DNA of 36,142 bases from Acidobacteriaceae bacterium (GTDB taxonomy: Bacteria; Acidobacteriota; Terriglobia; Terriglobales; Acidobacteriaceae), in contig JASHQH010000153.1 of assembly GCA_030037635.1 (NCBI GenBank), positions 1 to 36,142 on the forward strand. Direction: 5' to 3'. Shown in pieces: positions 7,282-24,735 of this stretch (positions are counted from its first letter, which is position 1; every line of letters starts with the position of its first letter). The position numbers and the translations under genes were made by a program. The notes under the pieces were generated by a model, which had not been told where the DNA came from, ran no database searches, and saw only the letters and a list, made by a program, of their open reading frames with translations.

Positions 7282-7433
7282 CGACGTAGAGTCTATTACG
7301 CTTCCCAGTCCATCAGCAATGCCGCTTTCTGAAGGCCCTGACATCGTGAAGCAACGGTGCGATGCGGAGACGCCGCTTCGAGCGCGCCCGGCTCCAGTCG
7401 AGGGTGAGCGAATTTCAACCGAAAGGAGCAACG

Positions 7434-10400
7434 ATGGTCGAGTCCCTGCGCGAGTGGCTGACCGCGAACGGCCTTTCGGAGTTTGAGGAACTCTTCACTC
7501 AAAATCAGGTCGACCTGAAGACTCTTTTGGTTTTGACGGATCCGGACCTGAAGGAGCTGGGCCTTCCGTTTGGCCCGCGAAAGCGGATACTCAATACGAT
7601 CGCGGAGCTGAAGCATCAAAGCGAGGGGCGGCCCGATGGAGAGACACCGAAGAGTTCTTCCACTGGCGAACGAAGACAACTGACGGTGATGTTCTGCGAC
7701 CTGGTGGGGTCGACCGCGCTTTCCACCGTCCTAGACCCCGAAGAATTGAACGCGCTGATCAAGAGCTACCGCGCAGCCTGCGGCGCGGTTGTTTCGCGCT
7801 ATGCCGGACATGTGGCCCAGTACCTGGGCGACGGGATCCTGGTCTATTTCGGCTGGCCCGTGGCATACGAGGATTCCGCCGAACGCGCCGTCCGCTCTGC
7901 GCTCGATATTATCGATGCCGTCAAGGCAATGCCTTCTGCCAGGCCACTTGCGGTTCGCATTGGCCTTGCGACCGGCCCGGTGGTTGTAGGAGAAGATTCT
8001 TCCGACGGCGCTGAGGCCGGTCTCGCAGTGGGAGAAACCCCGAACCTGGCGGCCCGCTTGCTCGCGCTGGCCAACCCTGGTGAGATCGTGATCGCGGCTC
8101 GGACCCGGCGCCTGCTGGGCAACGCCTTTTCTCTCACCGACCTGGGAAGCCACTCCATCAAAGGCATTGAACATCCCGTACAGGCGTGGCGCCTGGACGA
8201 AGCTCGACGGGTGGAAGGCCGCTTTAAAGCGGCACACGGCGGGATCGAAATTGCGCCGCTGGTAGGACGCGAAGATGAGGCTGCCCTCCTGGAACGCTGT
8301 TGGCAGCTCACCCGCCAGGGAGCGGGCCAGGTGGTGCTGATTGGCGGACAAGCGGGCATCGGCAAATCGCGCCTGACGCAGGGGATGCGTGAACGAATTC
8401 TGGAAGCGCACACTCCTTTGCACTATCAGTGCTCGCCCTTTCATCTAAATTCGCCTCTGCACCCATTCATTGAGGAGATTGAATCCTCCGCCGGCTTTTC
8501 TCGTGAAGACGCGTCTGGCGCGCGTTTCGAAAAGCTGGAAGCGGCGCTGGCAGGCGTGGTGCCGAATATCGAGGACGCCCTGCCGCTGTTCGCAGCGTTG
8601 CTTTCGCTTCCTGCCGGGCGGTATCGGCCGCTTCAACTTTCTCCTCAGAAACAGAAAGAAAAAACCCTGGAAACTCTGGTCGACCGAGTCCGGGCTCTGA
8701 GCAGCCGCGGCCCGGTGATGATCGCCATCGAAGATATTCATTGGATCGATCCCACCAGCCAGGATCTGCTCGACATTCTTGTCCCCATTGTGAGCGGTCT
8801 TCCTGTGCTGCTGGTGATGACCTACCGGCCCGAGTATCTGCCTCCATGGACCGGCGCCCATGTGAACGTGGTCACCTTGAATCGCCTCAGCCGTGAGCAG
8901 GGCGCGGTGTTGGTAGGGAGCGTGACTCGCGGCAAGACATTGCCGCAGGAGGTGCTGGATGAAGTGCTGGCCCGCACCGACGGAATTCCCTTGTTCGTGG
9001 AGGAATTGACGCGCTCGGTTCTGGAATCGGGATTGTTGCGGGAGGAGGGCGATCATTATGTGCTGCAAAAGCCGCTGTCTGCGCTCGCTATTCCGGTTTC
9101 TCTGCGCGACTCTCTGATGGCTCGCCTGGATCGCCTGGGCAAAGTGAAGGACCTGGCGCAGATTGGCGCATGCATCGGGAGGGAGTTTTCATTTGAACTG
9201 CTCCAACCCATCTCGGCGCTGCCTGCGGATACCCTGGAACGTAATCTGGAGAAACTGGTGGAAGCCGGACTCGTGTCTCGAAGCGGCGCGGCGCCTTCTG
9301 CCGTTTACATATTCAAGCATGCCCTGGTTCAGGATGCGGCCTACGAATCATTGCTGAAGAGCCGGCGCGCTGAGCTTCATTCCAGAATCGCGGTTGTACT
9401 GGAGCATGAATTCGCAGACCGCGTGGACAAATCGCCCGAAGGTCTGGCGCACCATCTGACGCAGGCAGGACATCTGACTGAGGCGATTCCCCTGTGGCGG
9501 AAGGCGGGAACGCTGGCCGTGGCGCGCGTCGCGCTGAAAGAAGCGGTTGCTCATTTCACCAAGGGTTTGAGCTTGATCGATCAGCTTGCGCCGACGGCGG
9601 AGCGGGACGCCATGGAACTGGCCATCCGCGAGCCGCTCAACGCAGCGTGGACAGGATTGCGGGGATGGGCGGCCCCCGAGGTAGGCACGAATTCAATGGC
9701 GATTCTTGGCCTGGCCGAAAGCCGCGGAAATAAGAGGAACCTGTTTCTGGCTCTGTGGTGGGTATGGACCAGCACCATCACGCAAGGGCGCATTGCCGAC
9801 TCACAGGTGTGGGCAGACCGACTTCTCGCGGAGGGCCGGCAAGCGAGCGAAATCGACCTGAAGTGCTTTGGCCATCTCACGGCGGCGGTCCAATATTTCC
9901 TGAACGGCCGGCTCGCCGAGGCGCGCGAGCATGCGGACCGCGCGCTGGCGCTGTTCGATCCCACCAGCGCGGCGCAGTGGATTCAAATGACGGGGCATGA
10001 TCTGCGCACCTTCGTCGAAGTGTATGCCTGCCAGCTCATCTGGATCATGGGCTACCCGGACCAGGCGCGAAAGCTGAGTAACGAATGTGTGGTGCGCGCT
10101 CGCAGCCAGGGCCATGCGTTCAATCTGGTATGGGCGTTGACATTCAGCGCCTATGTCTTCGCCTATCGGCGCGAGCCCGACCGATTTCTCGATCGTTTGG
10201 GCGAAGCCGACCGATTGGCGCGCGAACAGGGCCTGGCCTTCATTAATGAGGTTTCTGTCCCGCAAGCCAGCGGCATTGCAGCGCTGCTCAACCAGCGCCC
10301 CGCCGAAGCGATTGCCCTTCTTCAGCGGGGAATTGAGAATTGGACGAAGACCGGCGGCAACGTGCGCATCCCGCTGGTGAAATCGGCATTAGCCGTGGCA

Positions 10401-10802
10401 ACTGCGCTGGAGGGCGATACCGGCACAGCTTTGAAATTGATTGACGAGTGCATCGAGCAGATCGAGCGTCCTTCAGGGCAGGAACGTCTCTGGTTGTCAG
10501 AAGTGCTGCGCTCAAAAGGCTGGATCCTGATGCGCGCCGGCCGCGGCGATGAGGCGGAAGCCATTCTCCGCGCGTCCATTGACTGCGCACGTCAACAGCA
10601 GGCTCGATCGTGGGAGCTGCGCAGTTCCACCACGCTTGGGTTGCTTCTGGCCAGCCGCGGCCAATGCGGTGCCGCTCGCCGGTTGCTCTCTCCCATCTGC
10701 GAATGGTTCACCGAAGGCGCAGAGACGCAGGATCTCATCGAGGCCAGAGAATTGCTCGCAAGCCTGACCGCGAACAGCGTCGACGGCGAGAAAAGCAATT
10801 GA
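7434..10802 (+). CDS. SAM domain - class III adenylate/guanylate cyclase - AAA ATPase - TPR protein
   Basis: This 1122-residue cytoplasmic protein has four parts. Residues 1-62 form a SAM domain (LREWLTANGLSEFEELF). Residues 80-255 form a class III nucleotide cyclase. It keeps the metal aspartates D89 (VMFCDLVGST) and D133 (YLGDGILVYFGWP) and the transition-state Asn and Arg in TPNLAARL (N204, R208). Residues 275-600 form a STAND/AAA-type ATPase with Walker A GGQAGIGKS (304-312) and a Walker B-like VMIAIEDIHWID. The rest is a helical TPR-like region. Proteins of this build are known from several bacterial phyla and are thought to link a sensed partner to cyclic nucleotide synthesis. The ligand is unknown. 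The start at 7434 has AAAGGAG five bases upstream. The NTF2-like gene follows 52 bases later. Confidence 0.9.
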   Translation: MVESLREWLTANGLSEFEELFTQNQVDLKTLLVLTDPDLKELGLPFGPRKRILNTIAELKHQSEGRPDGETPKSSSTGERRQLTVMFCDLVGSTALSTVLDPEELNALIKSYRAACGAVVSRYAGHVAQYLGDGILVYFGWPVAYEDSAERAVRSALDIIDAVKAMPSARPLAVRIGLATGPVVVGEDSSDGAEAGLAVGETPNLAARLLALANPGEIVIAARTRRLLGNAFSLTDLGSHSIKGIEHPVQAWRLDEARRVEGRFKAAHGGIEIAPLVGREDEAALLERCWQLTRQGAGQVVLIGGQAGIGKSRLTQGMRERILEAHTPLHYQCSPFHLNSPLHPFIEEIESSAGFSREDASGARFEKLEAALAGVVPNIEDALPLFAALLSLPAGRYRPLQLSPQKQKEKTLETLVDRVRALSSRGPVMIAIEDIHWIDPTSQDLLDILVPIVSGLPVLLVMTYRPEYLPPWTGAHVNVVTLNRLSREQGAVLVGSVTRGKTLPQEVLDEVLARTDGIPLFVEELTRSVLESGLLREEGDHYVLQKPLSALAIPVSLRDSLMARLDRLGKVKDLAQIGACIGREFSFELLQPISALPADTLERNLEKLVEAGLVSRSGAAPSAVYIFKHALVQDAAYESLLKSRRAELHSRIAVVLEHEFADRVDKSPEGLAHHLTQAGHLTEAIPLWRKAGTLAVARVALKEAVAHFTKGLSLIDQLAPTAERDAMELAIREPLNAAWTGLRGWAAPEVGTNSMAILGLAESRGNKRNLFLALWWVWTSTITQGRIADSQVWADRLLAEGRQASEIDLKCFGHLTAAVQYFLNGRLAEAREHADRALALFDPTSAAQWIQMTGHDLRTFVEVYACQLIWIMGYPDQARKLSNECVVRARSQGHAFNLVWALTFSAYVFAYRREPDRFLDRLGEADRLAREQGLAFINEVSVPQASGIAALLNQRPAEAIALLQRGIENWTKTGGNVRIPLVKSALAVATALEGDTGTALKLIDECIEQIERPSGQERLWLSEVLRSKGWILMRAGRGDEAEAILRASIDCARQQQARSWELRSSTTLGLLLASRGQCGAARRLLSPICEWFTEGAETQDLIEARELLASLTANSVDGEKSN

Positions 10803-11320: not shown

Positions 11321-12688
11321 TCACGCAGGCATCGAACTGTGGACTTTCGCGTCCCGGGATAAGCCGTCGATCACGGGGCGCGGCAACCGCAGCCACGCTT
11401 CGAGGCAGTAGTGCAACCAGCCGCGTATATAGTCGCAGGCAGGCCTGCCGCGGTGAATCACTTCGTGATGGCAGCCCCCGCCGCACAAATAGCGCGCCCA
11501 GCAACTGCGGCATGGTTCCTGCCGGTGGACATGACGCTCGGTGAGCCACTCCGCTTGCCGCTTTCGATCGACGCCATGGTTCAACGTGCCCATGGCGCCG
11601 GCTGGGTCGCCGACGAAGCGATGGCACGCCGACAACTCGCCATCGGCTGAGACGCCCAGGTATCCGGCTCCCGCGCCGCAGGGGTAGGGCCGATGCGTCC
11701 CGCGCCCGATCTCGCGCATGGCATTCACCATATTGGCGAATGGGTAACGCTCCCCTTGAAGCGTGCGCCGCTCGAACTCCCTGCCGCAGCCGATCATCTC
11801 GCCGAGCATGGTTTCGAGATCTTTCGTCTGCATTTCGCCGTTGCCGCCCGGTGAGCTCAGCATGGGTGAAAACCCAACGCTGTGGAAACCAAGATCGATG
11901 AACTCGTCGAGCGTGCGGCGCAGCTCCAGGTTGGCGGGCGTCACCGTCACTCGCGCCGATACCTGCATCCGCCGCTGCATCGCGAGGAGCGGCCGAACCC
12001 GCTCGAGAATCGCGTCGAAGCTTGGCTTCCCACTCTTGAACGGCCGCAGCAGATTGTGCGCTTCCCGCGGTCCATCCAGGCTAATGGTCACCGCGAAGCC
12101 GTGGGCTTCAAAGAATTCCGCATCCGCGGGCGCCAGCAACGTGCCGTTGGTGGTGATCGAGAAGGTGATGGGATTGCCGCGGCGTTCAGCCAGCTGAGCT
12201 GCGTAACGGGTGGCGGCCTGAAGAACCGACCGGTTTACCAGCGGCTCGCCGCCCAGGAAAGCGAGGTTCAGGCGCGCACCTTCCTCTGCGCCGTTCACCA
12301 GCAGTTCCACGGCGCGCGTGGCCTCTTCAAGAGGCATGTTTTTCCCGGCGCCGCCGAATTCTCCCTGTTGCGCGTAGCAATAGGTGCAACCCAAATTGCA
12401 CTTCTGCGCAATCGCCAGCGAGAGAGCGTGAATTGCGGGCAGCGCCAGCGGCGCGTCGTCGATGAGGGGGCTTCCGCCCAGACCCACTTTTTCGAGCAGC
12501 GCCGTGATCTCCTGCTCGCCGGCGATGACGGCCGCTTCCAGCCGCGCGTATAAATCTGCGCCCGCGCCGAACAGGCGGCTGCCGTCGGCGACGAACAGGC
12601 TGCCGCCGTGAATGGTCTCGATGAGATGCACCTGCGGAACACGCGGCGCGGCTGCATCCATATAGCGCCTGGCCTCGGCGTTAGCCAC
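11321..12688 (-). CDS. QhpD/PeaB-like SPASM radical SAM peptide-modifying enzyme
   Basis: The 455-residue protein has the radical SAM cluster motif C97-X3-C101-X2-C104 (KCNLGCTYCYAQ) and the SAM-binding GGEP at 146-149. Its C-terminal SPASM domain follows the canonical spacing: C337, G350-X4-C355, C393-X2-C396-X5-C402-X3-C406, C418. It would therefore hold two auxiliary iron-sulfur clusters. The overall order, with an N-terminal HLIETIHGGSLFVADG region and SPGGNG near residue 280, resembles QhpD/PeaB. That enzyme makes Cys-to-Asp/Glu thioether bonds in the CTQ subunit of quinohemoprotein amine dehydrogenase. The start is a GTG overlapping the end of the LodA-like gene by 8 bases, with AGGGGAG upstream, so translation is coupled. 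The most likely substrate is that LodA-like protein; this is inferred from context. Confidence 0.85.
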   Translation of the reverse strand: MANAEARRYMDAAAPRVPQVHLIETIHGGSLFVADGSRLFGAGADLYARLEAAVIAGEQEITALLEKVGLGGSPLIDDAPLALPAIHALSLAIAQKCNLGCTYCYAQQGEFGGAGKNMPLEEATRAVELLVNGAEEGARLNLAFLGGEPLVNRSVLQAATRYAAQLAERRGNPITFSITTNGTLLAPADAEFFEAHGFAVTISLDGPREAHNLLRPFKSGKPSFDAILERVRPLLAMQRRMQVSARVTVTPANLELRRTLDEFIDLGFHSVGFSPMLSSPGGNGEMQTKDLETMLGEMIGCGREFERRTLQGERYPFANMVNAMREIGRGTHRPYPCGAGAGYLGVSADGELSACHRFVGDPAGAMGTLNHGVDRKRQAEWLTERHVHRQEPCRSCWARYLCGGGCHHEVIHRGRPACDYIRGWLHYCLEAWLRLPRPVIDGLSRDAKVHSSMPA

Positions 12689-15041
12689 CAGCTCCCCTTT
12701 TCACGAGCGGATCTTTCGAAGCCCGTGCGGCGCCCCTCTTAAAGTCTTTGCCGCCCACCTGGAATCTGAGCCAGTGTTCCCAGTCGAGAAACAGTTCATC
12801 GTAAAGCACCAGCCGCGAATCGACGTAATCGTCGGGCACGTAGTCTCCGGTACGCAGCTTCTGGAACCAGTTATCGCCTTTGCTCAGGCCATTGGCGGCC
12901 GGTTCCACGTTCACGTAATCGGGACGCGCTGAGGCCCAGTAGTAGCAGGAACATTCGCGATAGTCGTTCTGCCAGGGAGAGCAGAGCCCCTGGGTGAGCT
13001 CGCCGGGACTGGCCAGCGCTTTTGAAATCACGGCCGTGTCGCCGTCGAAAAACTTTCGCATTTCGAACTCGATGGTGACGAAGTTGCGCCTGGGATGATC
13101 GACGATGGGCTGAGGAATGTCCCGATCATCGCCGGTCAGGCCTTTGGTGAAGTCGCACAGGACGGTCTTTCCCTGGTGGGTACTCAAGAGGTGCGCGAGT
13201 GCGTTGGACCACTCCTTGGATGCCAGCCCGAAGGGATTAAACTGCGTGGTCAGACTGATTTCGCCATCCACGTCGGACGATGCCGGGCCCTTGATGGGAG
13301 TGGTCATCACGAACTGCCTTTGCTTGTCGATATGTAAGTGCTTATCCTCCGGCAACCGCACGCGCAGCAATTGTTGACCTACCAGGGCCTTGATCTTGCG
13401 GCTTTTGACATCCGGATCGACATCCATCACCAAATTGTCATACTCGCGCAGCACGATCCCTTTGAACATCCGCCGCCAAACGGCACGGAAATCCACTTCC
13501 AGGCCTGGGCAGCAGTTGGCCACCGATGTCACGGGACGGGAACTCACAGGATTGCCGAGAGCTTCGTAGTGGAGCTGAGCGGTCAGGTTCAGAGCGGTGA
13601 GCGACTCCGGGGGCGGCGCAGGAATCACCAGGGTTCTGCCGCGAAATGGCGCTTCCTCCGATACCTTGCGGATGGAGTCGATCTGCCGCCAGGTGAGCGC
13701 AAGGTAGCTATTGTCGGCCCCGCACATCAGCGCCGGCATCTTTCGCCGTCCCCGGTCGGTGAAGTCCGCAACCTCATCGGGGTTCCGGAGCAGTTTCACA
13801 AACCACGGCGCAGCGCCGCCGCGTAACGCCGCATATACCTGCTCATGCAAGGTCATGATTCCCAATGTATCGACAGAACCGGGAGCCATCACGGGGCGAA
13901 TGGCGCGCTCGGTATCGGCGGCTTCTTCTTCGGGCATGGAATCGAGCAAAAGCGCCGGACGCCCCTTGAAATTGTTGCCGTTCATGAGCGCCACGTTCAT
14001 GAAGCGAACGGTTTCGTACGCTCTCCGCACGATGTTGAGGGCGCGATTGCGCGTTACCTCGTAAGGCTCGTCCTTGGGCACCTGGGGTCCGTTGATCACC
14101 TGCTCCAGATCGTCGGCCAAGCTGCGAATAAACAGCGAGTCAGGAACCACGGCCGGCGGCGAAGCGCAGATTCGCGCCGTCGCGGTCCATCGCTTTCCGG
14201 CCGGCAACGTCAAGCGCACCTCAACAAAGCCGTCGCACGCGTCGTCGAGGTATCCGCGGCTGACCGCAACGTTGTCATTCAGCCACGACGGAGCAGGAGG
14301 CTCAATCGCATAGAGCGAGGGCGGCAAGGTCTGGTTCGCCACCTTGTCTGGATCTTTGCCGAAACCTACCCAGTCTTTGGATGCATCGTAGATGGCGCGT
14401 TCCGGCGGGATGGCCGGGTCGGGTTTGCCGGTGGCTGGGTCAACCGTGCGGTGAGGCCCGTAGATCAGTCCATGCGCCGGCGTAAAGCGCAAGCGAATCT
14501 CACTGAACTTCTTGTTGGGGAGGATGAAGCGCACGTGGCCGAAGTTGATGTGAGCGCCGGGCACAAAATTCTTTGAAGAGCCCAGCAGCACATGGCTGTC
14601 ATGATCTGAAAACCAACCGGTATTCGCCGCCACCATGTCGTCGGGGTTGCCGGTACGCCGCATCACCTTGCGGTTCGCAACCGAGACTTTCCACTCGATC
14701 CTGGCCCCTGCCGCGCCCACCTTCTTCAGCAGCGCAGCGTTGAGCGGCGTCATCTCGGTCTTGCCCTTCTGGGAATTCTCCACTACAGCGAAGACTTCAA
14801 GAAATGGCGCGACGGGGCGAATCTTGCCGTCGATCTTAAACGAGATTTTCTTGGGAACCCCGGCGCTCGCGACCTCTCCGGTTGACTCGCGCACCTTCAG
14901 GGTCTTCGCCGGAACGATCTTCCGGTAGCCAAGCGGCTCATTCGGGTTGTCGACGATCGTGTAGTTGTCTTGTGGTTCATTCGCCGAGCCCAACCGCCCA
15001 ATGGCAAACGGCGGCAGGATGCGCAACTCGCGGATCTTCAT
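12681..15041 (-). CDS. LodA/GoxA-like cysteine tryptophylquinone (CTQ) oxidase
   Basis: The 786-residue protein follows the LodA pattern: IRELRILPPFAIGRLGSA at the N-terminus, then IEWKVSVANRK (115-125) and GYLDDACDGFVEVRL (263-277). CCPGLEVDFR lies at 510-519. The family's hallmark PGELTQGLCSPWQNDY...ARPD runs from 679 to 708. LodA and GoxA are quinoprotein amino-acid oxidases whose CTQ cofactor is a crosslinked Cys and Trp. Here C697 (RECSC) is the best match to the cofactor cysteine and W757 (EHWLRF) to the cofactor tryptophan. They are 60 residues apart, much like C516 and W581 in LodA. It is somewhat longer than LodA (726). There is no signal peptide. Extra cysteines (C510, C511, C687, C699) could be targets of the radical SAM enzyme. 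The start overlaps the ferritin-like gene's stop (ATGA). The substrate is unknown. Confidence 0.82.
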   Translation of the reverse strand: MKIRELRILPPFAIGRLGSANEPQDNYTIVDNPNEPLGYRKIVPAKTLKVRESTGEVASAGVPKKISFKIDGKIRPVAPFLEVFAVVENSQKGKTEMTPLNAALLKKVGAAGARIEWKVSVANRKVMRRTGNPDDMVAANTGWFSDHDSHVLLGSSKNFVPGAHINFGHVRFILPNKKFSEIRLRFTPAHGLIYGPHRTVDPATGKPDPAIPPERAIYDASKDWVGFGKDPDKVANQTLPPSLYAIEPPAPSWLNDNVAVSRGYLDDACDGFVEVRLTLPAGKRWTATARICASPPAVVPDSLFIRSLADDLEQVINGPQVPKDEPYEVTRNRALNIVRRAYETVRFMNVALMNGNNFKGRPALLLDSMPEEEAADTERAIRPVMAPGSVDTLGIMTLHEQVYAALRGGAAPWFVKLLRNPDEVADFTDRGRRKMPALMCGADNSYLALTWRQIDSIRKVSEEAPFRGRTLVIPAPPPESLTALNLTAQLHYEALGNPVSSRPVTSVANCCPGLEVDFRAVWRRMFKGIVLREYDNLVMDVDPDVKSRKIKALVGQQLLRVRLPEDKHLHIDKQRQFVMTTPIKGPASSDVDGEISLTTQFNPFGLASKEWSNALAHLLSTHQGKTVLCDFTKGLTGDDRDIPQPIVDHPRRNFVTIEFEMRKFFDGDTAVISKALASPGELTQGLCSPWQNDYRECSCYYWASARPDYVNVEPAANGLSKGDNWFQKLRTGDYVPDDYVDSRLVLYDELFLDWEHWLRFQVGGKDFKRGAARASKDPLVKRGAGG

Positions 15042-16474
15042 TCGTCATACCTCGTGGTGGCGTTCGTTCCGGCAAGAATCTGGACGATCCAGGCATCCGT
15101 TTGTTCATCGAGTGCGAGCAGCGTCTTGATGTACTCTTTCTCGTCGGGAGTTGGATTGCTTTCAAGAATCGAATGGCAGGCATTGCGCGAGGCGACGAGC
15201 GAATCGCGATGCAGGCACCAGCAATCGACTTCGCTCGCGGGAAGGCGCGAATTCGCGGGCAGCTCAAACGGAGGGCCCGCCATGGTTTTCTTCCAGTCGG
15301 GCGTTTCCGGATCTGCGTCGACATCGCGCAGAGGCATCTGAAACAACTTGCCTGACAACGTCTTCAGCTGGTACATCTCACCAAAGACCCGGTGCATGAG
15401 CATAGCGCGCAAGTTTGGTTCGTTGGGTGCGCCGGGGGGATCGATCTGGAAGGTGTGCGCCAGGTACCGGAACAGCATCCAGTAGCGCACATTCAACAGT
15501 ACTGCCCAATTGCGCGTGCGGTCGCAGGAGATGTAGCCGTCGGGGCAAGGCGCATTGGGACCGGGGTTGGTGTTGGGATTGACCGCTGCGCGCGCCGCAG
15601 GGCTCCAGTCGCTGCTTTCAATCTTTCGGAACTCCCGGAATATTTTGATAAAGCGGCGGAAGTGCGTCCATTCTCCCTCCTTTTTCCAGTCTTCGACTCC
15701 CTCACCCTGCAGGCTGATTGCATTTAAGGCCGCCAGAGCCTGGGTGCGGGTGGCAACCTGAAAAATCAGAATGTTGGAATCGAACTGTGCCTGCCTTTGC
15801 ACGTCCGCTGTGGCGTCGACGAGATTCCCTGCCGCATCCAGGGGCCGCGGAGCCGGCCTGTAGCCGCGGCCCCACTCATCCCAGGAGGCCTGCAAGGCAT
15901 AGGTTTGAGGCTGCAGCGCGCCCTCCGGAATCCGTTCGGTGTCTGCCAGCAGAGTGGTGATTTCGCGATAGATCTCCGCCACCGGATGCACAGGCAAAGC
16001 ATCCTTCCTGAGATGTTTTTTCACCAGCTCCTCGATCTCTTTTCGCTCGGGGAACTCTTCTGACTCCGGCATCTCCGCATTCACGTAGCAGGCCAGCGAA
16101 CCCATGCAGAATGGTTCAATATTGAACCATTCAACGGCCCACGGAAACTGATCACGGGACAGGTTGAAGCCTGCTCCCAGGAAGGTAAGAACATTCTGCA
16201 CCGTGATGAGGTGGCCCATTTCTTCGCGAGCCACGGCCAGAATCGATTCCTGCCATTCCTTGACCTTGTGGCGATGTTGCGGCGGCACCTGTTTGCCTCC
16301 CAGCGAATAGGCCGCGTAAAGATACTGGACCATGAGCGCGTGTTCCAGGGCGGCTCCAAGATGGAGCAGCCACACCAGCTGGTCGTGCCAGGTCATTTCG
16401 CGCCGCTTGGGAAAATCGTTAGCCAACACAGAGGTAAAGGGCCGTGGGCCCTGCTGCTTGTCTTCAGGTGTCAT
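15038..16474 (-). CDS. Ferritin-like (VioB/iminophenylpyruvate dimer synthase-type) protein
   Basis: The 478-residue protein has a ferritin-like helical bundle of the type found in VioB and RebD. Helix 1 carries E44 in LEHALMVQYLYAAYS, helix 2 carries E84, E85 and H88 in AVAREEMGHL, and E258 and H271 lie in QGEG...WTHFRRF. These residues could bind one or two iron ions. VioB and RebD couple two tryptophan-derived imines in violacein and rebeccamycin synthesis. They are about 1000 residues, so this is a much shorter relative. The frame extends upstream to 16705, but the ATG at 16474 has an AAGGA site and opens a clean N-terminus. It is the gene just before the LodA-like oxidase and overlaps it by four bases, so the two proteins probably work together, in cofactor maturation or on the oxidase product. 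Confidence 0.75.
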   Translation of the reverse strand: MTPEDKQQGPRPFTSVLANDFPKRREMTWHDQLVWLLHLGAALEHALMVQYLYAAYSLGGKQVPPQHRHKVKEWQESILAVAREEMGHLITVQNVLTFLGAGFNLSRDQFPWAVEWFNIEPFCMGSLACYVNAEMPESEEFPERKEIEELVKKHLRKDALPVHPVAEIYREITTLLADTERIPEGALQPQTYALQASWDEWGRGYRPAPRPLDAAGNLVDATADVQRQAQFDSNILIFQVATRTQALAALNAISLQGEGVEDWKKEGEWTHFRRFIKIFREFRKIESSDWSPAARAAVNPNTNPGPNAPCPDGYISCDRTRNWAVLLNVRYWMLFRYLAHTFQIDPPGAPNEPNLRAMLMHRVFGEMYQLKTLSGKLFQMPLRDVDADPETPDWKKTMAGPPFELPANSRLPASEVDCWCLHRDSLVASRNACHSILESNPTPDEKEYIKTLLALDEQTDAWIVQILAGTNATTRYDE

Positions 16475-16572
16475 TCGATTCCTTCTCGAGTTTTCAGCTG
16501 TACCTGGTACCGGCCTGTTCCATCCCGCGGCCACCTTCACACATGACTCGCGTCCCAGAAGGCGAACGCAAG

Positions 16573-18084
16573 CTATACGCGAAATGTCGTCATTTGGCGT
16601 ATGGGTATCTGTGCACTTTTGCCGGTCGCGGGAATCAAGAGCCCCTTGCCCAACAACCACCCCGCAAGGGAGAGTCCTGTTTTTATGGATACACGGTCGG
16701 ACCATAGCAGCGCAATTTCAATCGGTTTCATGCCCCCGCGCACCCTTTGAACGAGTGGCGGCATCTCGTAGCCGCCAACAAATGTCACGGGTCTATCGAG
16801 GGAAGGATGCTGCAATGCCGATTTCAGCGTCACAAATCCGCCTTCGATGCAGGGCAAATCAACGAACGTGAGGTCCGGTGACAGGGCCAGCGGCTGATCG
16901 GCGAAGCCGCTCGGGCTGAGCAACGGCTTGGCTTCGGCCGTCAAACTTGTTGAAGCGCGCCGCCGCCAGAATTCCGTTTTACGGGTCGCGGCCGCGGCGC
17001 TAAAGTACTCGCCCGCCCATTGGCTATGACGCTCCGATGCATCGGCGAGACTCGACCGATAGAATTCAATGGCCGCTTCACTCGATTCCGGCTTTCGCAA
17101 CAGAGTGTTCACCACGACCGCGCCCGACAATGCCGTCTGAATAGCTTTCTGCACTCCGCTCGACGAGAGAGGATCGATGGTGAGCGCCGCATCGCCAACT
17201 TTGATGCTGTGACGGGTGATGCTTTCTTCATCTAAATATGCTGTTGCATCGGCCGCCTTGATGGGCGAGACCAGATGGATGTCCCGGCAACCCTTGAGCA
17301 GGCCGGACCGAGCCACCAATTCTTGAAATCGGTCCGGGGTGTAGGTTCGAGCATCAACGAAGACCAGGGTGTTGCAGGTGCCGTCCGGTATTGGAACGCC
17401 CCAATACCAGGCATCCGAACCAGCCTCGATGCGGGGCTGCCTGGGAAGATCGGAACCTTGCCAGTAGGCGTAAAACGCAGTGGTTCGAGCTCCGGTTCGG
17501 CGCTTGCGTCCGCGCGTGGCAAAGGCCCGGCCGCTGGCGTCGGCCAGAAATCGAGCGATGATAGGGATGGTTTCTCCGCCTCGCTGCACCATAAGGCGCC
17601 AGCCTTCCGCGAGCGGAAAGCAATCCCGGAAAACGGCCGGCTGCAGCACCTCGACGCCAGACTCCCGTGCGCGCTTCAGCAGCAAAGCGTCGAATCTGCC
17701 ACGATCGACGAGCATGCCCCCGGCCTCTGGATCAGTCCGTTCCCGAAGCTCCCCATCCCAGTTCACGAGGACCGAGTCAACCGTGGATGCACCGGCTTCA
17801 TTCGCCAGGTCACCAGCGCCCAGTGCCTGCAGCAGGGAACGCACGCCGGGTGTGAGGGATTCACCAAGGTGTCTCCTGGGAAACTCCGCCCGCTCGACGA
17901 GCAGGGCGCGATTACCCAGAGCGGCAAGTTGCGCGGCCAGCACGCTACCCGCAGGACCACCCCCGATGACGCACGCGTCTGTTTGGATCGCCTTCACGAC
18001 GGCCTCGAACGCGTAAGGTTCACATGGCACTTCAGGAACATCTGGAGCTTCAGTGCAGGGGAACAGCGTTCCGAAGTCCATCAT
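16573..18084 (-). CDS. LodB/QhpG-like FAD-dependent monooxygenase (halogenase-like fold)
   Basis: The 503-residue protein has an FAD-binding Rossmann motif CVIGGGPAGS at residues 38-47. Other family motifs are FPRRHLGESLTPG (68-80), DASGR (182-186) and the second FAD-contact GDAALTIDPLSSSG (298-310). This is the pattern of flavin halogenases and of LodB and QhpG. LodB is needed for CTQ formation in LodA, and QhpG hydroxylates the precursor tryptophan in the amine dehydrogenase. The lysine and proline motifs needed to call it a true halogenase were not seen. The frame is open to 18465, but the ATGs at 18084 and 18081 follow a GGAAG and give a family-like length; the upstream part is out of character. 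It is the first gene of the operon, 98 bases before the ferritin-like gene. Confidence 0.8.
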   Translation of the reverse strand: MMDFGTLFPCTEAPDVPEVPCEPYAFEAVVKAIQTDACVIGGGPAGSVLAAQLAALGNRALLVERAEFPRRHLGESLTPGVRSLLQALGAGDLANEAGASTVDSVLVNWDGELRERTDPEAGGMLVDRGRFDALLLKRARESGVEVLQPAVFRDCFPLAEGWRLMVQRGGETIPIIARFLADASGRAFATRGRKRRTGARTTAFYAYWQGSDLPRQPRIEAGSDAWYWGVPIPDGTCNTLVFVDARTYTPDRFQELVARSGLLKGCRDIHLVSPIKAADATAYLDEESITRHSIKVGDAALTIDPLSSSGVQKAIQTALSGAVVVNTLLRKPESSEAAIEFYRSSLADASERHSQWAGEYFSAAAATRKTEFWRRRASTSLTAEAKPLLSPSGFADQPLALSPDLTFVDLPCIEGGFVTLKSALQHPSLDRPVTFVGGYEMPPLVQRVRGGMKPIEIALLWSDRVSIKTGLSLAGWLLGKGLLIPATGKSAQIPIRQMTTFRV

Positions 18085-18151
18085 ACTTCCACTTTTTGCC
18101 TTCCCACCACCTTGAATGGGGAAGCGATGCGCTGCTCGATTCTTGATCGAT

Positions 18152-18173
18152 AAAAAAGCCGAGCTTTGCGGCT
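18152..18173 (-). terminator. Possible terminator-like hairpin in the leader of the CTQ operon
   Basis: On the minus strand AGCCG (18173-18169) pairs with CGGCT (18161-18157) across a 7-base loop, followed by six T residues. It sits 68 bases upstream of the first CTQ-operon gene. It could stop antisense transcripts coming from the kinase side, or act as an attenuator. The five-pair stem is short, so this is weak. Confidence 0.25.
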
Positions 18174-18355
18174 GTATGCTTAAAACGTGCCGCCTGAATT
18201 GCCCGAGCGGGAATGCGGGCCGCCCTGCCGCTGCCCGTGAACGATTGGAGGCGCCGCCGGGCTTGTTTCTGAATACCGCGCTGACTACAAATCTGGAGGC
18301 TCGCGCAAAGCGCGAGCACCTGGTTCGAGGTGGTGAAGGAGAACTTCTAGCTCGG

Positions 18356-20734
18356 ATGCCCCATCCGCCTGACAATCCGCAATCGGCTCCGAATGCTGCC
18401 ACGCTGGGCCCTGAAATCAGGGGAAAGGCGCCAGATAGCGGCACGAACCCGGAGCTGCTGCCCATGGGAACGCTGCTGGGGCCTTACCGTATTGACGAGC
18501 ATATTGGATCTGGCGGCATGGGAGCCGTCTATAAGGCGCGCGACACTCGCCTGGAACGGAATGTCGCCATCAAAGTTATCCCGGCGAGGAACTCCAACCC
18601 CGTGCTCGAGGCGGCTCTGCTGCGCGAGGCGCAGTTGACTTCCTCACTCAGTCATCCGGGCATCGTCACGATTTATGACATTCTCTTCCACGGCGGAACG
18701 ACCTGCATCGTGATGGAATACGTAGAGGGACAGTCGCTGCGGCAGCTGATTCCCGAAGGCGGTCTGCCCGTCGACCACGCTCTTTCGATGGCGACGCTCA
18801 TCGGCAACGCCATCGCAGCCGCCCACGCTGCAGGCGTGATCCACCGCGATTTGAAGCCGGCCAATATTCTCGTCCGCGAGGACGGGCAGATAAGAATCCT
18901 GGACTTTGGACTGGCCAAGGTTTCCCGGCCATTCTCCCCTGACGGCGAGACACTGGACAAAAGTCTCTTCAGCGGACTTACCGTGGGCACCATGGGCTAC
19001 ATGGCGCCGGAGCAGGCCCGCGCCGAACAGGTGGACGAACGCGCGGATATTTTCTCCTTCGGAGTGATTCTTTTTCAGTTACTCACGGGCAGGCTGCCCT
19101 TTCGTGGCGCCAATCCAGTGGCCTTGCTGCTCGCCATGCAGACGATGGATCCGGATCCCATGCGCGATGCCCGGCCGGAGATTCCCGCAGGGATCGAGTC
19201 GGCCGTGCGCAGGGCTCTGGCCAGGACGGCAGCTGATCGATACCCGACGATCCGCGAGATGCTGGCCGACTTGAATGCCGCGTCGGGCAAGTCAATGAGC
19301 GCCCCCGTGCCGGCTGTGACCGCAGCTGCGCATACCATTGCGGTTTTGCCTTTGATGAATATCAGTCCCGACCCGGAGAACGAATATCTCTGCGACGGCC
19401 TGGCCGAGGAACTGACCAACGGTTTCACGCAGATTCGAGGTCTGCGCGTTGTCTCGCGGAGTTCCGCTTTTCAGTGCAAGGGAAACTCCCCGGACGTGCG
19501 AGAGATTGGTCGTCGCCTGGGGGCCAGCCTTCTGGTGCACGGCAGCCTTCGCCGCTCCGGCACCCGCATTCGTCTCACCATGCAACTGAGCCAGACCAGC
19601 GAAGGGTATCAAATCTGGTCGCAGCGCTTTGATTCAGAGGTAACCGATCTATTTGCGCTTCAGGATGAATTGACCGCGGCAGTGCTGGACGAGCTGCGCG
19701 CGCAACTGGGTGCAAGATTTCCCGCCCTCGAAGTTGCGCGAAAGATGCCCTCTTCTGAAGCCTACGATCTTTATCTGCAAGGGAGATTTGCCTTCAATCA
19801 GGAAACCCCCGAGGAGTTTCAACGTGCTCTCGATCTATTCCTTCGCGCAGCAGCTGTCGATCCGGCATTCGCTCCGGCCTTGATTGGAATTGCCGAGACC
19901 CACATGCGGCTTGACTGGTATGGGATTGAACCGGCCTCCGATGCAGTGCCCGCTGTCCGCGCTGCGCTGGCCTCCGCCTTGCGGCTGCAACCTGACTCCG
20001 TCTCCGCCCTTTGCGCTCTCGCCATCACGCAGGCAGGCTGGGATTGGGACTGGACTGCGGCCGGCAATACCTTCAATCGCGCCATCGCCGCCGGAGCTGG
20101 CCTCGCTTCCATACACTTTCACTACGGTTTGGACTTCCTGACCCCCCGCGGCCGCCTCGAAGAAGCTCTGCGCGAGTTGCGCCAGGCTCTCCGCCTCGAT
20201 CCTCTGTCGCCGATTGTGCATACCGCAGTCGGTGGCTGTCTTTACCGAATGCGGCGATGGGATGAAGCTCAAGAAACTTTGCGCGCGACCCTGCACGCAA
20301 ACCCCGAGTTCGGACATGCGCGCTGGTCGCTCGGTCGCGTACTGCTCGAGCAGGACCGTTCAGATGAGGCCCTCAGCTGCTTTGAGCAAGCCCTGCAGGC
20401 GATGGGACATATTCCCGCCGGGCTGTCGGAGATCGGTTACTGTCATGCGCGCATGGGCCACCGCGATCTGGCTCTGGCAATGCTCGATCGGTTGCAGCAA
20501 CTCGGGCAGGATGGATGGGTCTCACCACTCAACTCAGCTCTCATCTACGTGGGCCTCAAAGATCACGATGCCGCCATTCGCTGCCTCGAAGAATCGTATA
20601 CGAAGCGAATTCGTCAACTGGTCTGGATCAACGTCGATCCACGCTACGACACTCTGCACGGCATGCCTGCCTTTGAGCAGCTCATCGCTCGCATGGGCCT
20701 GGCGCCACACCGCGTCGTCGCAGCCGCGGGATAA
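18356..20734 (+). CDS. Ser/Thr protein kinase with TolB-like and TPR repeats
   Basis: From the ATG at 18356 the protein has 792 residues. The kinase domain starts at about residue 43 with the glycine loop GSGGMGAVYKARD. It has lysine K73 (VAIKV), the catalytic HRDLKPAN (D165), DFG (183-185) and the APE motif (MAPEQ). All catalytic residues are present, so it should be active. A TolB-like domain follows (TIAVLPLMNISPDPENEYLCDGLAEEL, about 327-440). The C-terminal half is helical with TPR-type repeats. No membrane segment is evident, so it is probably cytoplasmic. This build is very common in Acidobacteria. An upstream frame extends to 18116, but that part is low in family signal; the chosen start has AAGGAG 14 bases away, longer than ideal. 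It diverges from the CTQ operon. Confidence 0.85.
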   Translation: MPHPPDNPQSAPNAATLGPEIRGKAPDSGTNPELLPMGTLLGPYRIDEHIGSGGMGAVYKARDTRLERNVAIKVIPARNSNPVLEAALLREAQLTSSLSHPGIVTIYDILFHGGTTCIVMEYVEGQSLRQLIPEGGLPVDHALSMATLIGNAIAAAHAAGVIHRDLKPANILVREDGQIRILDFGLAKVSRPFSPDGETLDKSLFSGLTVGTMGYMAPEQARAEQVDERADIFSFGVILFQLLTGRLPFRGANPVALLLAMQTMDPDPMRDARPEIPAGIESAVRRALARTAADRYPTIREMLADLNAASGKSMSAPVPAVTAAAHTIAVLPLMNISPDPENEYLCDGLAEELTNGFTQIRGLRVVSRSSAFQCKGNSPDVREIGRRLGASLLVHGSLRRSGTRIRLTMQLSQTSEGYQIWSQRFDSEVTDLFALQDELTAAVLDELRAQLGARFPALEVARKMPSSEAYDLYLQGRFAFNQETPEEFQRALDLFLRAAAVDPAFAPALIGIAETHMRLDWYGIEPASDAVPAVRAALASALRLQPDSVSALCALAITQAGWDWDWTAAGNTFNRAIAAGAGLASIHFHYGLDFLTPRGRLEEALRELRQALRLDPLSPIVHTAVGGCLYRMRRWDEAQETLRATLHANPEFGHARWSLGRVLLEQDRSDEALSCFEQALQAMGHIPAGLSEIGYCHARMGHRDLALAMLDRLQQLGQDGWVSPLNSALIYVGLKDHDAAIRCLEESYTKRIRQLVWINVDPRYDTLHGMPAFEQLIARMGLAPHRVVAAAG

Positions 20735-21046: not shown

Positions 21047-22402
21047 TCACTTTCCAAAGCTGAAATCGCGCAGTAAGCCTTCCGATGGCTCCCACTCTCC
21101 AATTGCCGGGTTGAGCAACATTGCGGTGCGCGCCATATTCCTTGATTCTGTCATTGCCGCTTCAATCGTTGCCCGTTCATATTCCTTCGCGGCCAGCACC
21201 AGCCCTCGGACCGCCGCCGGCAACGTGCCGCACGGTTCCGGCGTGATGGCGCCATCGCAGATGCTGCACGGCACTTCAACCACATCGTTGGCGTCAATTT
21301 CGGCAATAGCGCCCTGGTTCCTTACATTGACGATCACTCGCCGGGCTATTTTGCCGCGCAGGGCCTTCATCACATCAAGCGCGATGCGGTGATAACCGCT
21401 CGCGGCGCGGAACGGATCATCTTCGCCCTGCGATGTATCTTTTCGGAATTCGTCTTCGCTCGTGGACTCGAGCATCATATAGGTTCCAGATCGAACGTTG
21501 AGATACTCGATATATGCAGCCAGGGCGCCTTGGCCATCATTGGCTGCGAGCAACGTGCCAAGCCGCCGAAAGAGCTGATGGTTCAGCTTCCCGATTTCAG
21601 TGCCTCGCGTGCCGCCGCGGGCCTTCTGGTTGGCCAGAGCACGCCGCCGTGAATAATAAAAGTACAAGTACTCGCTGGGGATTAGCCGCAGGCTGCGAAT
21701 GAGCTCATGATCGAAGAGCGGTCCGCTATGAAGCTGATCCAGCAGCTGATCGTTCGCCAGCACCTCGCTGGTAACATCTTTGCCGCGCAGCTCGATCCTG
21801 CGCACCCACCCGAGATGATTCAGGCCGATATAGTCACAACGGACTTCTGATGGACTGGCGCCGAGCGCGACGGCAATCCGATGCAGCATCTCCGACGGCG
21901 TATCGCAGATGCCGACGGCGCGAACCTCAGTGTGTTGCAGAATGGCCTGGGTAATGAGGCCGGCGGGGTTTGTGAAGTTGATCAACCACGCTTTTGGCGC
22001 GAGGCGGTGAACCGCACTGGCCTGCTCCACTGCAACCGGGACGGTGCGAAGCGCCATAGCCATTCCAGCCGGCCCGGTGGTTTCCTGTCCCGGATAGCCG
22101 TGCACGATAGCGGTTCGTTCGTCACTGGTGCGCGCGGCGATTCCACCAACACGAATGCTGCTGAGTACAAAGTCCGCTCCTTCGACGGCGTCTTCAAGGA
22201 ATGCCGCTTCGCGCACGCGCAGGGAGCCCCCTTCGCGCTGCACCACAGCCCGGCCCAGGGCCACCATCATCCGCGCGCGTTCCAGATCCGGGTCGTATAA
22301 GACGATTTCGTCTGTGCCGAGCTCGCGCGCGCACTCGTTGATACCGAACACGACCAGTGGAGTCCTGACGCCGCCTCCGCCGATGCATGCGACCTTACTC
22401 AT
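21047..22402 (-). CDS. Glycoside hydrolase family 4, 6-phospho-beta-glucosidase-like
   Basis: The 451-residue protein starts with a dinucleotide-binding motif (VACIGGGGVRTP), as GH4 enzymes need NAD. It has the family sequences YPGQETTGPAG (103-113), LINFTNPAG (140-148), GICDTPSE (164-171) and GLNHLGW (193-199). C166 and H196 are the expected ligands of the catalytic divalent metal. GH4 enzymes cleave glycosides by an oxidation-elimination route. The CDTP type is closest to phospho-beta-glucosidases, which act on 6-phosphorylated disaccharides in the cytoplasm. No phosphotransferase system is nearby; a PfkB kinase lies immediately upstream and overlaps by 8 bases. The frame extends to 22528, but the ATG at 22402 has GAGGAA upstream and a typical N-terminus. 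Specificity towards the sugar is not readable. Confidence 0.88.
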   Translation of the reverse strand: MSKVACIGGGGVRTPLVVFGINECARELGTDEIVLYDPDLERARMMVALGRAVVQREGGSLRVREAAFLEDAVEGADFVLSSIRVGGIAARTSDERTAIVHGYPGQETTGPAGMAMALRTVPVAVEQASAVHRLAPKAWLINFTNPAGLITQAILQHTEVRAVGICDTPSEMLHRIAVALGASPSEVRCDYIGLNHLGWVRRIELRGKDVTSEVLANDQLLDQLHSGPLFDHELIRSLRLIPSEYLYFYYSRRRALANQKARGGTRGTEIGKLNHQLFRRLGTLLAANDGQGALAAYIEYLNVRSGTYMMLESTSEDEFRKDTSQGEDDPFRAASGYHRIALDVMKALRGKIARRVIVNVRNQGAIAEIDANDVVEVPCSICDGAITPEPCGTLPAAVRGLVLAAKEYERATIEAAMTESRNMARTAMLLNPAIGEWEPSEGLLRDFSFGK

Positions 22403-23318
22403 AGCTTTCCTCATAACAGCGCTTGAGTTCGTCGCGCGCGGGCAACCCGCGCAAGGCGCCTGCCACCCGTGTTGAGAGCCCGCCGCAGACGCATCCGCGG
22501 CGCATGCACTCTTCGCCGTCCTCTCCATCTAACAAGCCGTCGATGAAGCCTGCATCAAAAGCATCGCCGGCGCCCGTCGTATCCACCGCGCCCACAACGG
22601 GCGAAGGCACGCACACCGCGCCATTCTTGCCGCGCATCATCGCTCCCGCGGCTCCCATCTTGACTACGCCGCTCGGCCATTTTTCTCTAAAGGTGAAGTC
22701 CAGATAGGCTTTCGCGTCTCCCGGGCAGATCATTCCTGCCTCGCGTTCGTTCGGAAGAAAGTAGTCAACCCGCGAGCAGGTCCTGAGACTCGCGGCGTCG
22801 TTCAGCCATGCCGCGCGGTTCCCGACATCCAGTGAGGTTGTGCAGTTCGCCGCGGCGAGCTCGGAGAGAAGTCTCTCTGCAAGGCTTGCGGTTACCGGCA
22901 TGGCGAAATGGACATGCCGCGCTCGAGCCAAATGTTCCACGATGGAGTCGCCGGCCAGTTGTTCCTCAAGCCTTGCGTTCTCTCCCATGTAGGTGAAGAA
23001 CGAACGGTCTTCTGTGTTGGATATGCTGATGGTGATCCCGGTAGATCCCTTGCCGCGATGCAACGCGCCGCTCGATACGCCGTAACTCGAGAGGCGTTGA
23101 TCGATCCACGCCATCTCTTTCTCTCCCACAATGCCAATCAGGCTCACGGACCGGCCCAATCGCGCCAGCGCACAGGCAGTAATCGCGGCTCCGCCCCCGA
23201 CCTCCCGGACATATTCGTTGGTGAACACCTCTTCGCCGGGGCCCGGCCATTTCACGAATCCGGTGAGGACATGGTCGACGTAGATTTCGCCAACCACCGC
23301 TATGTCGTATGTCTTCAT
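22395..23318 (-). CDS. PfkB-family sugar/nucleoside kinase
   Basis: The 307-residue protein has the ribokinase-like layout. The N-terminal strand YDIAVVGEIYVDHV is followed by the glycine-rich GGGAAITACALARLG (41-55), and the C-terminal signature DTTGAGDAFDAG (246-257) holds the catalytic base D252. It would phosphorylate a sugar, sugar acid or nucleoside with ATP in the cytoplasm. The ATG at 23318 overlaps the TGA of the permease gene (ATGA), and the stop overlaps the GH4 start. The three genes are therefore translationally coupled. This suggests that the kinase supplies the 6-phosphate that the GH4 enzyme needs, in place of a phosphotransferase system. Confidence 0.9.
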   Translation of the reverse strand: MKTYDIAVVGEIYVDHVLTGFVKWPGPGEEVFTNEYVREVGGGAAITACALARLGRSVSLIGIVGEKEMAWIDQRLSSYGVSSGALHRGKGSTGITISISNTEDRSFFTYMGENARLEEQLAGDSIVEHLARARHVHFAMPVTASLAERLLSELAAANCTTSLDVGNRAAWLNDAASLRTCSRVDYFLPNEREAGMICPGDAKAYLDFTFREKWPSGVVKMGAAGAMMRGKNGAVCVPSPVVGAVDTTGAGDAFDAGFIDGLLDGEDGEECMRRGCVCGGLSTRVAGALRGLPARDELKRCYEESYE

Positions 23319-24673
23319 TGAGCCGCGAAGGGCCACTCCCGTCCACGCTGTGCTTTAAGGAGGTAAATTCCGCCGCCCGCAGCCACCGTGATGACGCCGA
23401 TGGCCAGATAGCGTGCGCCACTGCTTCCCGCTATATAGAGCCATCCCAGCAGCGCAATCACAGCGGGGATGGGATAAAGAGGCATACGATAGACGCCGCT
23501 TGCCTGAGGGTTGCGGAAACGCATCAACGGAACCGCTACGCATTGCGCGGCAAACTGGAAAATGGCCTGCACCACAATGAGAACTTTGATCAGTTGCTCA
23601 AGCGACAACAGGCATGCGACCGCGGAAAACGCGCCCATGAAAAGCAGCGAAATGGTGGGGAATCCGCCCTTCCTATGCAAACGGGCAAACGGCGCAAAAA
23701 AGCGGCCTTCTGCCGCAGCCGCCCAGGGAATTCGTGAGTAGCCGAGCATATTGGCGAATACCGCGCCAAAGCTGACCGCGAGCACCAGGAGCGAAACCAG
23801 CAGTCCGGCCCAATGCCCGTAGATTGCCTGCATAAAGTCGGCCGCGATGGCGTGAGAGTGTTGCGCCACACGCCAGTTCATCGATCCGATGATGGCAAGA
23901 TTCATCAACAGATAGAGCGCCGCAAGAAGAAGAATGGACAAAATGATGGCGCGCGGAATGTTTTTTCGAGGCTCCTCGATCTCGCCGCCCAGGAAACATA
24001 CGTTGTTGTAGCCGCCGTAGTCGTAGGCGGCGATGAGTGTAGTTGCTCCCAGCCCGCTCCAGAAGGCGAACGACATGCGAAAGGCGCCGGCGGGAATGTC
24101 AAATGCCATGGACGCGTGAAAGTGCAGTAAGCCGGCGACAATTACCCAGACGAAGGTTAGTATCACGACGGAAGCTATTGCCACAGTAATGCGATCGATG
24201 GAGCGAATGTTACGGTAAAGCAGATAGACATTCAGTAAACAAACGCCCGCCGCTATGGCTACCAACTTTGAGTGAGTGAGTCTGGGATCGATGAAACTCA
24301 TGTACTCAGAGAATCCTACGGCGCCGGAAGCGATTGAGACCGGCCCGATAAGCAGGGTTTGCCAGAGAAACAGGAAGCTCATAAGCTGACCGAAAGTGTT
24401 TCGGCCATAGGCTTCCTGCAGGTAGTAATAAGAGCCGCCTGAGTTTGGCATTTGCGAACCGAGTTCCGCCCACACCATTCCATCGCACAGGCATAACAGC
24501 GCTCCAAGTACCCATCCGACCATTGCCTGCGGTCCGCCCATTGCGGCAATGGCCAGAGGAATGGTGAGGAACGGCCCAATTCCCACCATGTTCAGCACAT
24601 TAGCGGAGATAGCGCCAAAAGGCCCCAGTCCGCGCTCCAACTGCTGCCGATTTTGCGCATCTGCATCGATCAT
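23315..24673 (-). CDS. APC-superfamily permease (amino acid/amine transporter type)
   Basis: This is a 452-residue integral membrane protein with about 12 hydrophobic segments. The first segment has the APC start LGPFGAISANVLNMVGIGPFL with the unwound glycine-rich helix, and SQMPNSGGSYYYLQEAYG is the characteristic second-helix region. EIEEPRKNIPRAI is the usual cytoplasmic loop. Such carriers move amino acids, polyamines or related amines. Its place between a deacetylase and a sugar kinase suggests an amino-sugar or amino-acid moiety released in the periplasm; this is inference. The start at 24673 has a weak AGGA site; another ATG at 24700 is possible. It lies 62 bases after the PIG-L gene and overlaps the PfkB gene by four bases. 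Confidence 0.85.
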   Translation of the reverse strand: MIDADAQNRQQLERGLGPFGAISANVLNMVGIGPFLTIPLAIAAMGGPQAMVGWVLGALLCLCDGMVWAELGSQMPNSGGSYYYLQEAYGRNTFGQLMSFLFLWQTLLIGPVSIASGAVGFSEYMSFIDPRLTHSKLVAIAAGVCLLNVYLLYRNIRSIDRITVAIASVVILTFVWVIVAGLLHFHASMAFDIPAGAFRMSFAFWSGLGATTLIAAYDYGGYNNVCFLGGEIEEPRKNIPRAIILSILLLAALYLLMNLAIIGSMNWRVAQHSHAIAADFMQAIYGHWAGLLVSLLVLAVSFGAVFANMLGYSRIPWAAAAEGRFFAPFARLHRKGGFPTISLLFMGAFSAVACLLSLEQLIKVLIVVQAIFQFAAQCVAVPLMRFRNPQASGVYRMPLYPIPAVIALLGWLYIAGSSGARYLAIGVITVAAGGGIYLLKAQRGREWPFAAQ

Positions 24674-24735
24674 CTGGATCCTGCCTGCAACAACTAACAT
24701 TGCTCACAATCGCAGTGTCGGCAATGTCGCGCGTT

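Follow-up and report, generated by a model that had tools for sequence, protein, structure and literature searches.

The stretch of DNA analysed here (the window; 36,142 nt from an Acidobacteriaceae bacterium) carries, at the locus of interest, four ORFs on the minus strand. They specify a flavoprotein, a ferritin-like protein, a LodA-like protein and a radical SAM enzyme (Table 1). The ferritin-like and LodA-like genes share 4 bases, and the LodA-like and radical SAM genes share 8. The ORF coordinates thereby agree with the earlier note, which had described four minus-strand genes, three of them joined by overlaps of 4 or 8 bases. The ferritin-like ORF is open up to 16705 (15038-16705), but because homology begins at about the ATG at 16477 this codon is the likely start of the gene, and therefore a gap, without overlap, separates it from the end of the flavoprotein gene at 16573. 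The flavoprotein ORF spans 16573-18465. Here, a start at 18084 is reasonable and gives a protein of 503 residues, which the QhpG model matched from residue 38. Two genes flank the operon, their domains being read from sequence alone: one for a large regulator with SAM-domain, nucleotide cyclase and ATPase parts (7362-10802) and one, divergent from the flavoprotein start, for a TPR-repeat Ser/Thr kinase (18116-20734). Farther along, a row of glycoside hydrolase family 4, PfkB sugar kinase and amino-acid permease genes occupies 21047-24700 on the minus strand.

Table 1. Genes and sequence features of the operon, with coordinates in the window and the evidence for each.
Feature	Coordinates	Strand	Evidence
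QhpG-type FAD flavoprotein, 503 aa, predicted peptidyl-Trp dihydroxylase	16573..18084	-	NF049967 score; own clade
PF12902 ferritin-like (VioB-type) protein	15038..16477	-	PF12902, E=4e-26; VioB model region 600-736
LodA-like catalytic protein, 786 aa, N- and C-halves fused	12681..15041	-	End-to-end alignment; N-domain model match
Leader-like motif LTALNLTA, residues 481-488, start of C-half region	13578..13601	-	[LIV]x[PA]xNxxA pattern
Cofactor motif, residues 687-708, CSPWQNDYRECSCYYWASARPD	12918..12983	-	LodA and QhpC alignments
QhpD-like radical SAM/SPASM enzyme, 455 aa	11321..12688	-	TIGR03906 best model; aligned to CteB 5wgg
Radical SAM CX3CX2C motif, C97, C101, C104	12377..12400	-	Sequence and alignment

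The gene set is not confined to this genome. Twenty further loci from Rhizobiales, Sphingomonadales, Burkholderiales, Streptomycetaceae, Nostocales and other relatives have genes for both a LodA-like protein and a QhpD-like radical SAM enzyme, and most of them add the flavoprotein and the PF12902 protein. A tblastn search of plasmid records matched 20 records (Rhizobium, Bradyrhizobium, Mesorhizobium, Novosphingobium, Microvirga, Azospirillum, Mycetohabitans, Embleya, Streptomyces and Nostoc), and the set was found again in Rhizobium, Bradyrhizobium, Mesorhizobium, Novosphingobium, Mycetohabitans and Embleya. The main arrangement, type A, has the order ferritin-like, N-half, C-half, radical SAM and flavoprotein genes. 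The oxidase is thus encoded by two genes in most relatives; the fused form occurs in the window, in a second genome of the same phylum (G165) and in an Aestuariivirga metagenome-assembled genome (L002; 63% identity, on a short and frame-broken contig). The ferritin-like gene lies on the opposite strand in two loci (L018 and L055) and was not matched in two others (L019 and L026, the latter at a contig edge). Type B, the sister arrangement, consists of the N-half, the radical SAM gene and a cofactor-motif protein fused to a PF12902 domain, in that order, and a divergent QhpG-like gene is located downstream in all five loci tested. Individual copies depart from these patterns. In Novosphingobium (L017, 9001-10382) the N-half appears as two overlapping ORFs of 251 and 209 aa, either a real split or a sequencing frameshift, while the radical SAM gene of Azospirillum argentinense (L020, 10470-12483) is shortened beside an IS3 element and this copy looks broken. 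In the NCBI annotation, the products of the split oxidase genes are hypothetical proteins, and most of the flavoproteins are labelled tryptophan 7-halogenase.

None of 35 other genomes in the window's genus has the LodA-like gene, and many of its homologues are on plasmids; horizontal spread is therefore likely. A sample of the class around the Aestuariivirga locus gave one positive in 385, and no relatives were found in viral contigs. Tyrosinase genes are present beside the operon in Rhizobium (L018, 14880-16361) and Mesorhizobium (L019, 198-1682 and 14346-18271), the latter also with multicopper oxidase and cytochrome P460 genes. Tyrosinase-type neighbours have been reported for some lodA operons (PMC4417212).

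Judged by its sequence, the 786-residue protein is a remote but end-to-end relative of LodA. It can be aligned collinearly with ordinary LodA-like proteins over the whole span between the N-terminal IAR.G motif and the last helix, at 22-24% identity to canonical members. The Pfam LodA_N and LodA_C scores of the window protein itself are below gathering, while homologues pass (L014 C-half, 25.3 with a threshold of 25; L018 N-half, 32 with a threshold of 26.3). A phmmer search of the PDB with the window protein gave no match at 0.01, and the only part of LodA matched by a profile search was the cofactor motif (E=0.05). Because these direct searches are weak, the kinship rests on the cofactor motif (with the CTQ Cys, Trp and catalytic Asp aligned), collinearity and the fold of the N-domain, and on these grounds the kinship claimed in the earlier note holds. 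Two AlphaFold2 runs gave models with mean pLDDT of 51 and 55, in which the C-half is unusable, and the fold match refers to the N-domain only: the top 14 PDB rows are all LodA/GoxA with Z scores of 9.9-10.9, and the next fold scores 6.3. The conserved motifs of the N-half are retained alongside this fold.

The ferritin-like protein matches both PF12902 and the C-terminal part of VioB, and a relative matches VioB over 598-985, which confirms its earlier designation as VioB-type. The Glu and ExxH di-iron ligand positions are kept in all 16 aligned proteins. With VioB/RebD-type proteins it thus shares a PF12902 domain that has the di-iron ligand set, but it corresponds to the C-terminal VioB part only and is encoded without violacein-type genes. 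An association between LodA and PF12902 is not new by itself, and fungal LodA genes with PF12902 ferritin-like neighbours have already been described (PMC4417212). Among bacteria, a PF12902 ferritin-like gene adjoins an ordinary lodA-like gene, without a radical SAM gene, at L054 (9156-10595). The resemblance to VioB raises the possibility of a VioA/VioB-like pair, in which the ferritin-like protein couples or oxidises a reactive imine or aldehyde supplied by the quinoprotein, so that the operon yields a small molecule. Genes for tyrosinase, multicopper oxidase and Dyp-peroxidase near some relatives would fit such a pathway. However, PF12902 proteins accompany LodA genes that have no known product (PMC4417212; L054), and no transporter or tailoring gene is constant across the sets. 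We regard this role as possible but rather unlikely; it concerns the product and is compatible with the explanation of the cofactor developed below.

The cofactor motif connects the protein to both known types of CTQ enzyme. D512, C516 and W581 of LodA, W581 being the second Trp of WW, align with D693, C697 and W702 in the window protein. From this alignment, C697 and W702 would form the CTQ pair and D693 would be the counterpart of the catalytic Asp. The radical SAM-linked proteins, types A and B included, follow the consensus L-C-x-P-W-x2-D-x3-C-x-C-x-Y-W-A-x3-P-D, in which the CTQ Cys and Trp and the catalytic Asp are invariant. Two further cysteines, C687 and C699, are both present in 18 of 18 distinct radical SAM-linked motifs and 21 of 21 aligned loci and both absent from 11 LodA/GoxA proteins (nine canonical proteins plus the PDB LodA and GoxA), although the radical SAM-linked proteins may be one clade, in which case the association could go back to a small number of independent events. 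In LodA, a Cys lies one place off an extra-Cys position. In five ordinary lodA loci with long flanks no radical SAM homologue was found.

QhpC, of quinohemoprotein amine dehydrogenase (QHNDH), carries Cys at places that match C687 and C699. On PDB chain 1jmx_G the relevant residues are Cys 27, 37 and 41, Trp 43, and Asp 33 and 49, and in the QHNDH structure Cys27 is paired with Asp33. The equivalents of both crosslinked pairs, Cys27-Asp33 and Cys41-Asp49, are present and invariant in the radical SAM-linked proteins, and the corresponding bonds are predicted. For QhpC itself, the Cys41-Asp49 thioether has been stated, Asp33 has been equated with Asp678 of GoxA, and Trp43 is dihydroxylated by QhpG (PMC7876137). 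The acceptor Asp residues are also kept in most canonical LodA proteins, and therefore the Cys donors alone are specific. The Cys in NCCPGLE was rejected as a donor, since its position varies (C/A/S/F), and no counterpart of the third QhpC crosslink (Cys7-Glu16) was seen in the radical SAM-linked family. Comparison of motif-region profiles, with gappy columns removed and 200 column shuffles, scored 33.0 for the radical SAM-linked proteins against QhpC (shuffle maximum 18.8) and 68.0 for the same proteins against ordinary LodA (20.9); between ordinary LodA and QhpC the score was 35.9 (22.7).

The radical SAM enzyme is best described by the QhpD model (TIGR03906), the top one among 64 families, with 311 bits. 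This score is under the equivalog cut-off of 453, and a true QhpD reaches 579 bits; the label QhpD-like, as the earlier note had it, is thus appropriate. QhpD is also the top family for every type A and type B enzyme tested. The window enzyme was aligned to CteB (5wgg) over 85-407. In a tree with CteB as outgroup, type A, type B and QhpD form separate groups, with the root unsure due to the long CteB branch. The next-best models are the thioether maturases PapB, nif11 and SCIFF, which make other thioethers. Together with the score under the QhpD cut-off, this closeness leaves room for another role in a LodA-fold CTQ oxidase, in which the enzyme would make the Cys-Trp bond, a different crosslink or a new cofactor involving C699 or the conserved Tyr701. 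Moreover, the C-x-C-x-Y-W spacing is unlike C-x3-C-x-W in QhpC, such that C699 is one residue farther from the Trp than C41 of QhpC. Against this stand the rank of QhpD in all members tested and the match of both extra Cys positions to QhpC, and we consider such a role unlikely. A new cofactor, as raised in the earlier note, is not required, given that the CTQ residues are intact; additional Cys-Asp thioethers would fit the motif better.

The earlier note had also proposed a LodB-like flavoprotein. The protein scores 294.5 bits with QhpG (NF049967; cut-off 240), compared with 93.5 for LodB and 102.1 for GoxB, while two LodB-like neighbours of ordinary lodA genes, used as controls, show the reverse order. 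In the tree, the flavoproteins of the radical SAM-linked system, QhpG and LodB constitute three supported groups, so that the qhp-operon QhpG proteins form a clade apart from the flavoproteins of this system, despite the QhpG cut-off being passed. QhpG is likewise the best model for the flavoproteins downstream in type B loci. Scores, controls and tree together reject a LodB identity. As the flavoprotein is QhpG-type, both maturases are QHNDH-type, and the idea that the operon merges two maturation routes has to be given up: only the target is LodA-type.

A short segment at the start of the C-half region bears on how the radical SAM enzyme may find its target. The pattern [LIV]x[PA]xNxxA occurs in 19 of 20 C-halves, shortly before a conserved GNP segment and, in several split C-half genes, at most a dozen residues from the start codon. 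It is also found in five of five QhpC leaders compared (N-terminus MKHLxPxNxKA), and the background rate of [LI]x[PA]xNxxA is 1.2e-4 per residue; the motif was noticed first and counted afterwards, and its sharing by C-halves and QhpC is suggestive only. The QhpC leader is needed for the interaction with QhpD (PMC7876137), and a leader-like motif in this position would account for the division of the oxidase into two genes. One type A and one type B locus (L016, 3301-6206; L058, 6927-7901 and 13824-15618) have a small unknown gene and genes for a serine protease and a C25-type cysteine peptidase nearby; the peptidases are possible leader-cleaving partners, cf. QhpE in the qhp operon. Split genes, a leader-like motif and a radical SAM enzyme also recall the logic of RiPP systems, where the LodA-like protein would be catalytically dead and the crosslinked C-half would be the product or a structural protein. 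The CTQ Cys, the Trp and the catalytic Asp never vary, and the N-half retains the LodA fold and its conserved motifs, which makes this very unlikely. Finally, that the four genes are coincidental neighbours without joint function, for which their absence from the 35 congeneric genomes might speak, is refuted by the recurrence of the set in near-constant order in three phyla and by the sister group, in which cofactor half and ferritin-like domain are fused, and its probability is negligible.

These data make it probable that the operon encodes a LodA-fold CTQ oxidase whose cofactor is built by a QHNDH-type pair of enzymes. The window's genome, which is 91% complete, has no match to QhpC (PF08992) and no other LodA_C match, and therefore the LodA-like protein is the sole visible target of the maturases. 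In the proposed sequence of events, the QhpD-like enzyme would recognise the leader-like segment and, like QhpD acting on QhpC, form two thioether bonds, C687-D693 and C699-D708. The QhpG-like flavoprotein would then dihydroxylate W702, and C697 would bond to W702 to give CTQ. The mature protein may oxidise a primary amine or an amino acid. The PF12902 di-iron protein is envisaged as a stable partner that handles O2/H2O2 or the imine or assists in the oxidation of the Trp; a lasting partnership with the oxidase is suggested by type B, where the ferritin-like domain is fused to the cofactor half.

With LodA/GoxA, the system has in common the N-domain fold, the order of motifs along the chain, the CTQ Cys and Trp, the catalytic Asp and a flavoprotein gene nearby, and PF12902 genes are also near some fungal and bacterial lodA genes. 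It differs in the radical SAM gene, the two extra Cys, a flavoprotein of QhpG-type rather than LodB/GoxB, an oxidase that is usually split, a stretch of about 130 extra residues before the cofactor motif and the remote identity. Similarities to QHNDH (qhp, QhpA-G) comprise the radical SAM enzyme, the flavoprotein, the leader-like motif, the motif LC-x-P-x3-D-x3-C ... W-x4-PD and Cys at the crosslink donor places. However, the operon is without the heme subunit, the beta-propeller subunit, the QhpE protease and the QhpF transporter, and its target has the LodA fold (a C-half of about 290 aa, or 786 aa when fused) instead of being a 9 kDa subunit. The lodA-lodB pairs and the fungal ferritin-like neighbours are the sole sets described in PMC4417212. 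No description of a LodA-like protein with a radical SAM maturase was found in openly licensed papers (a search with no preprints and few subscription journals), nor was a biochemical study of any family member found in the openly licensed literature. In that literature, the earlier statement that the gene set is undescribed remains valid.

We think it somewhat better than an even chance that the operon represents a third class of CTQ enzyme that combines a LodA-fold protein with QhpD-type stapling, QhpG-type oxidation and a di-iron ferritin-like partner. There is a fair chance that this class deserves a standing of its own among the CTQ quinoproteins. The two known CTQ enzyme families, QHNDH and LodA/GoxA, are treated as separate, with different maturation, and the operon looks like a bridge between them. 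With the body of one family and the maturases and crosslink Cys of the other, it makes their relationship testable, and the proposal gives a prediction at the level of residues that can be tested directly. If true, a large oxidase would be a substrate of QhpD-type radical SAM chemistry, and the QHNDH and LodA/GoxA cofactor motifs would have a common ancestry, with the third class linking them.
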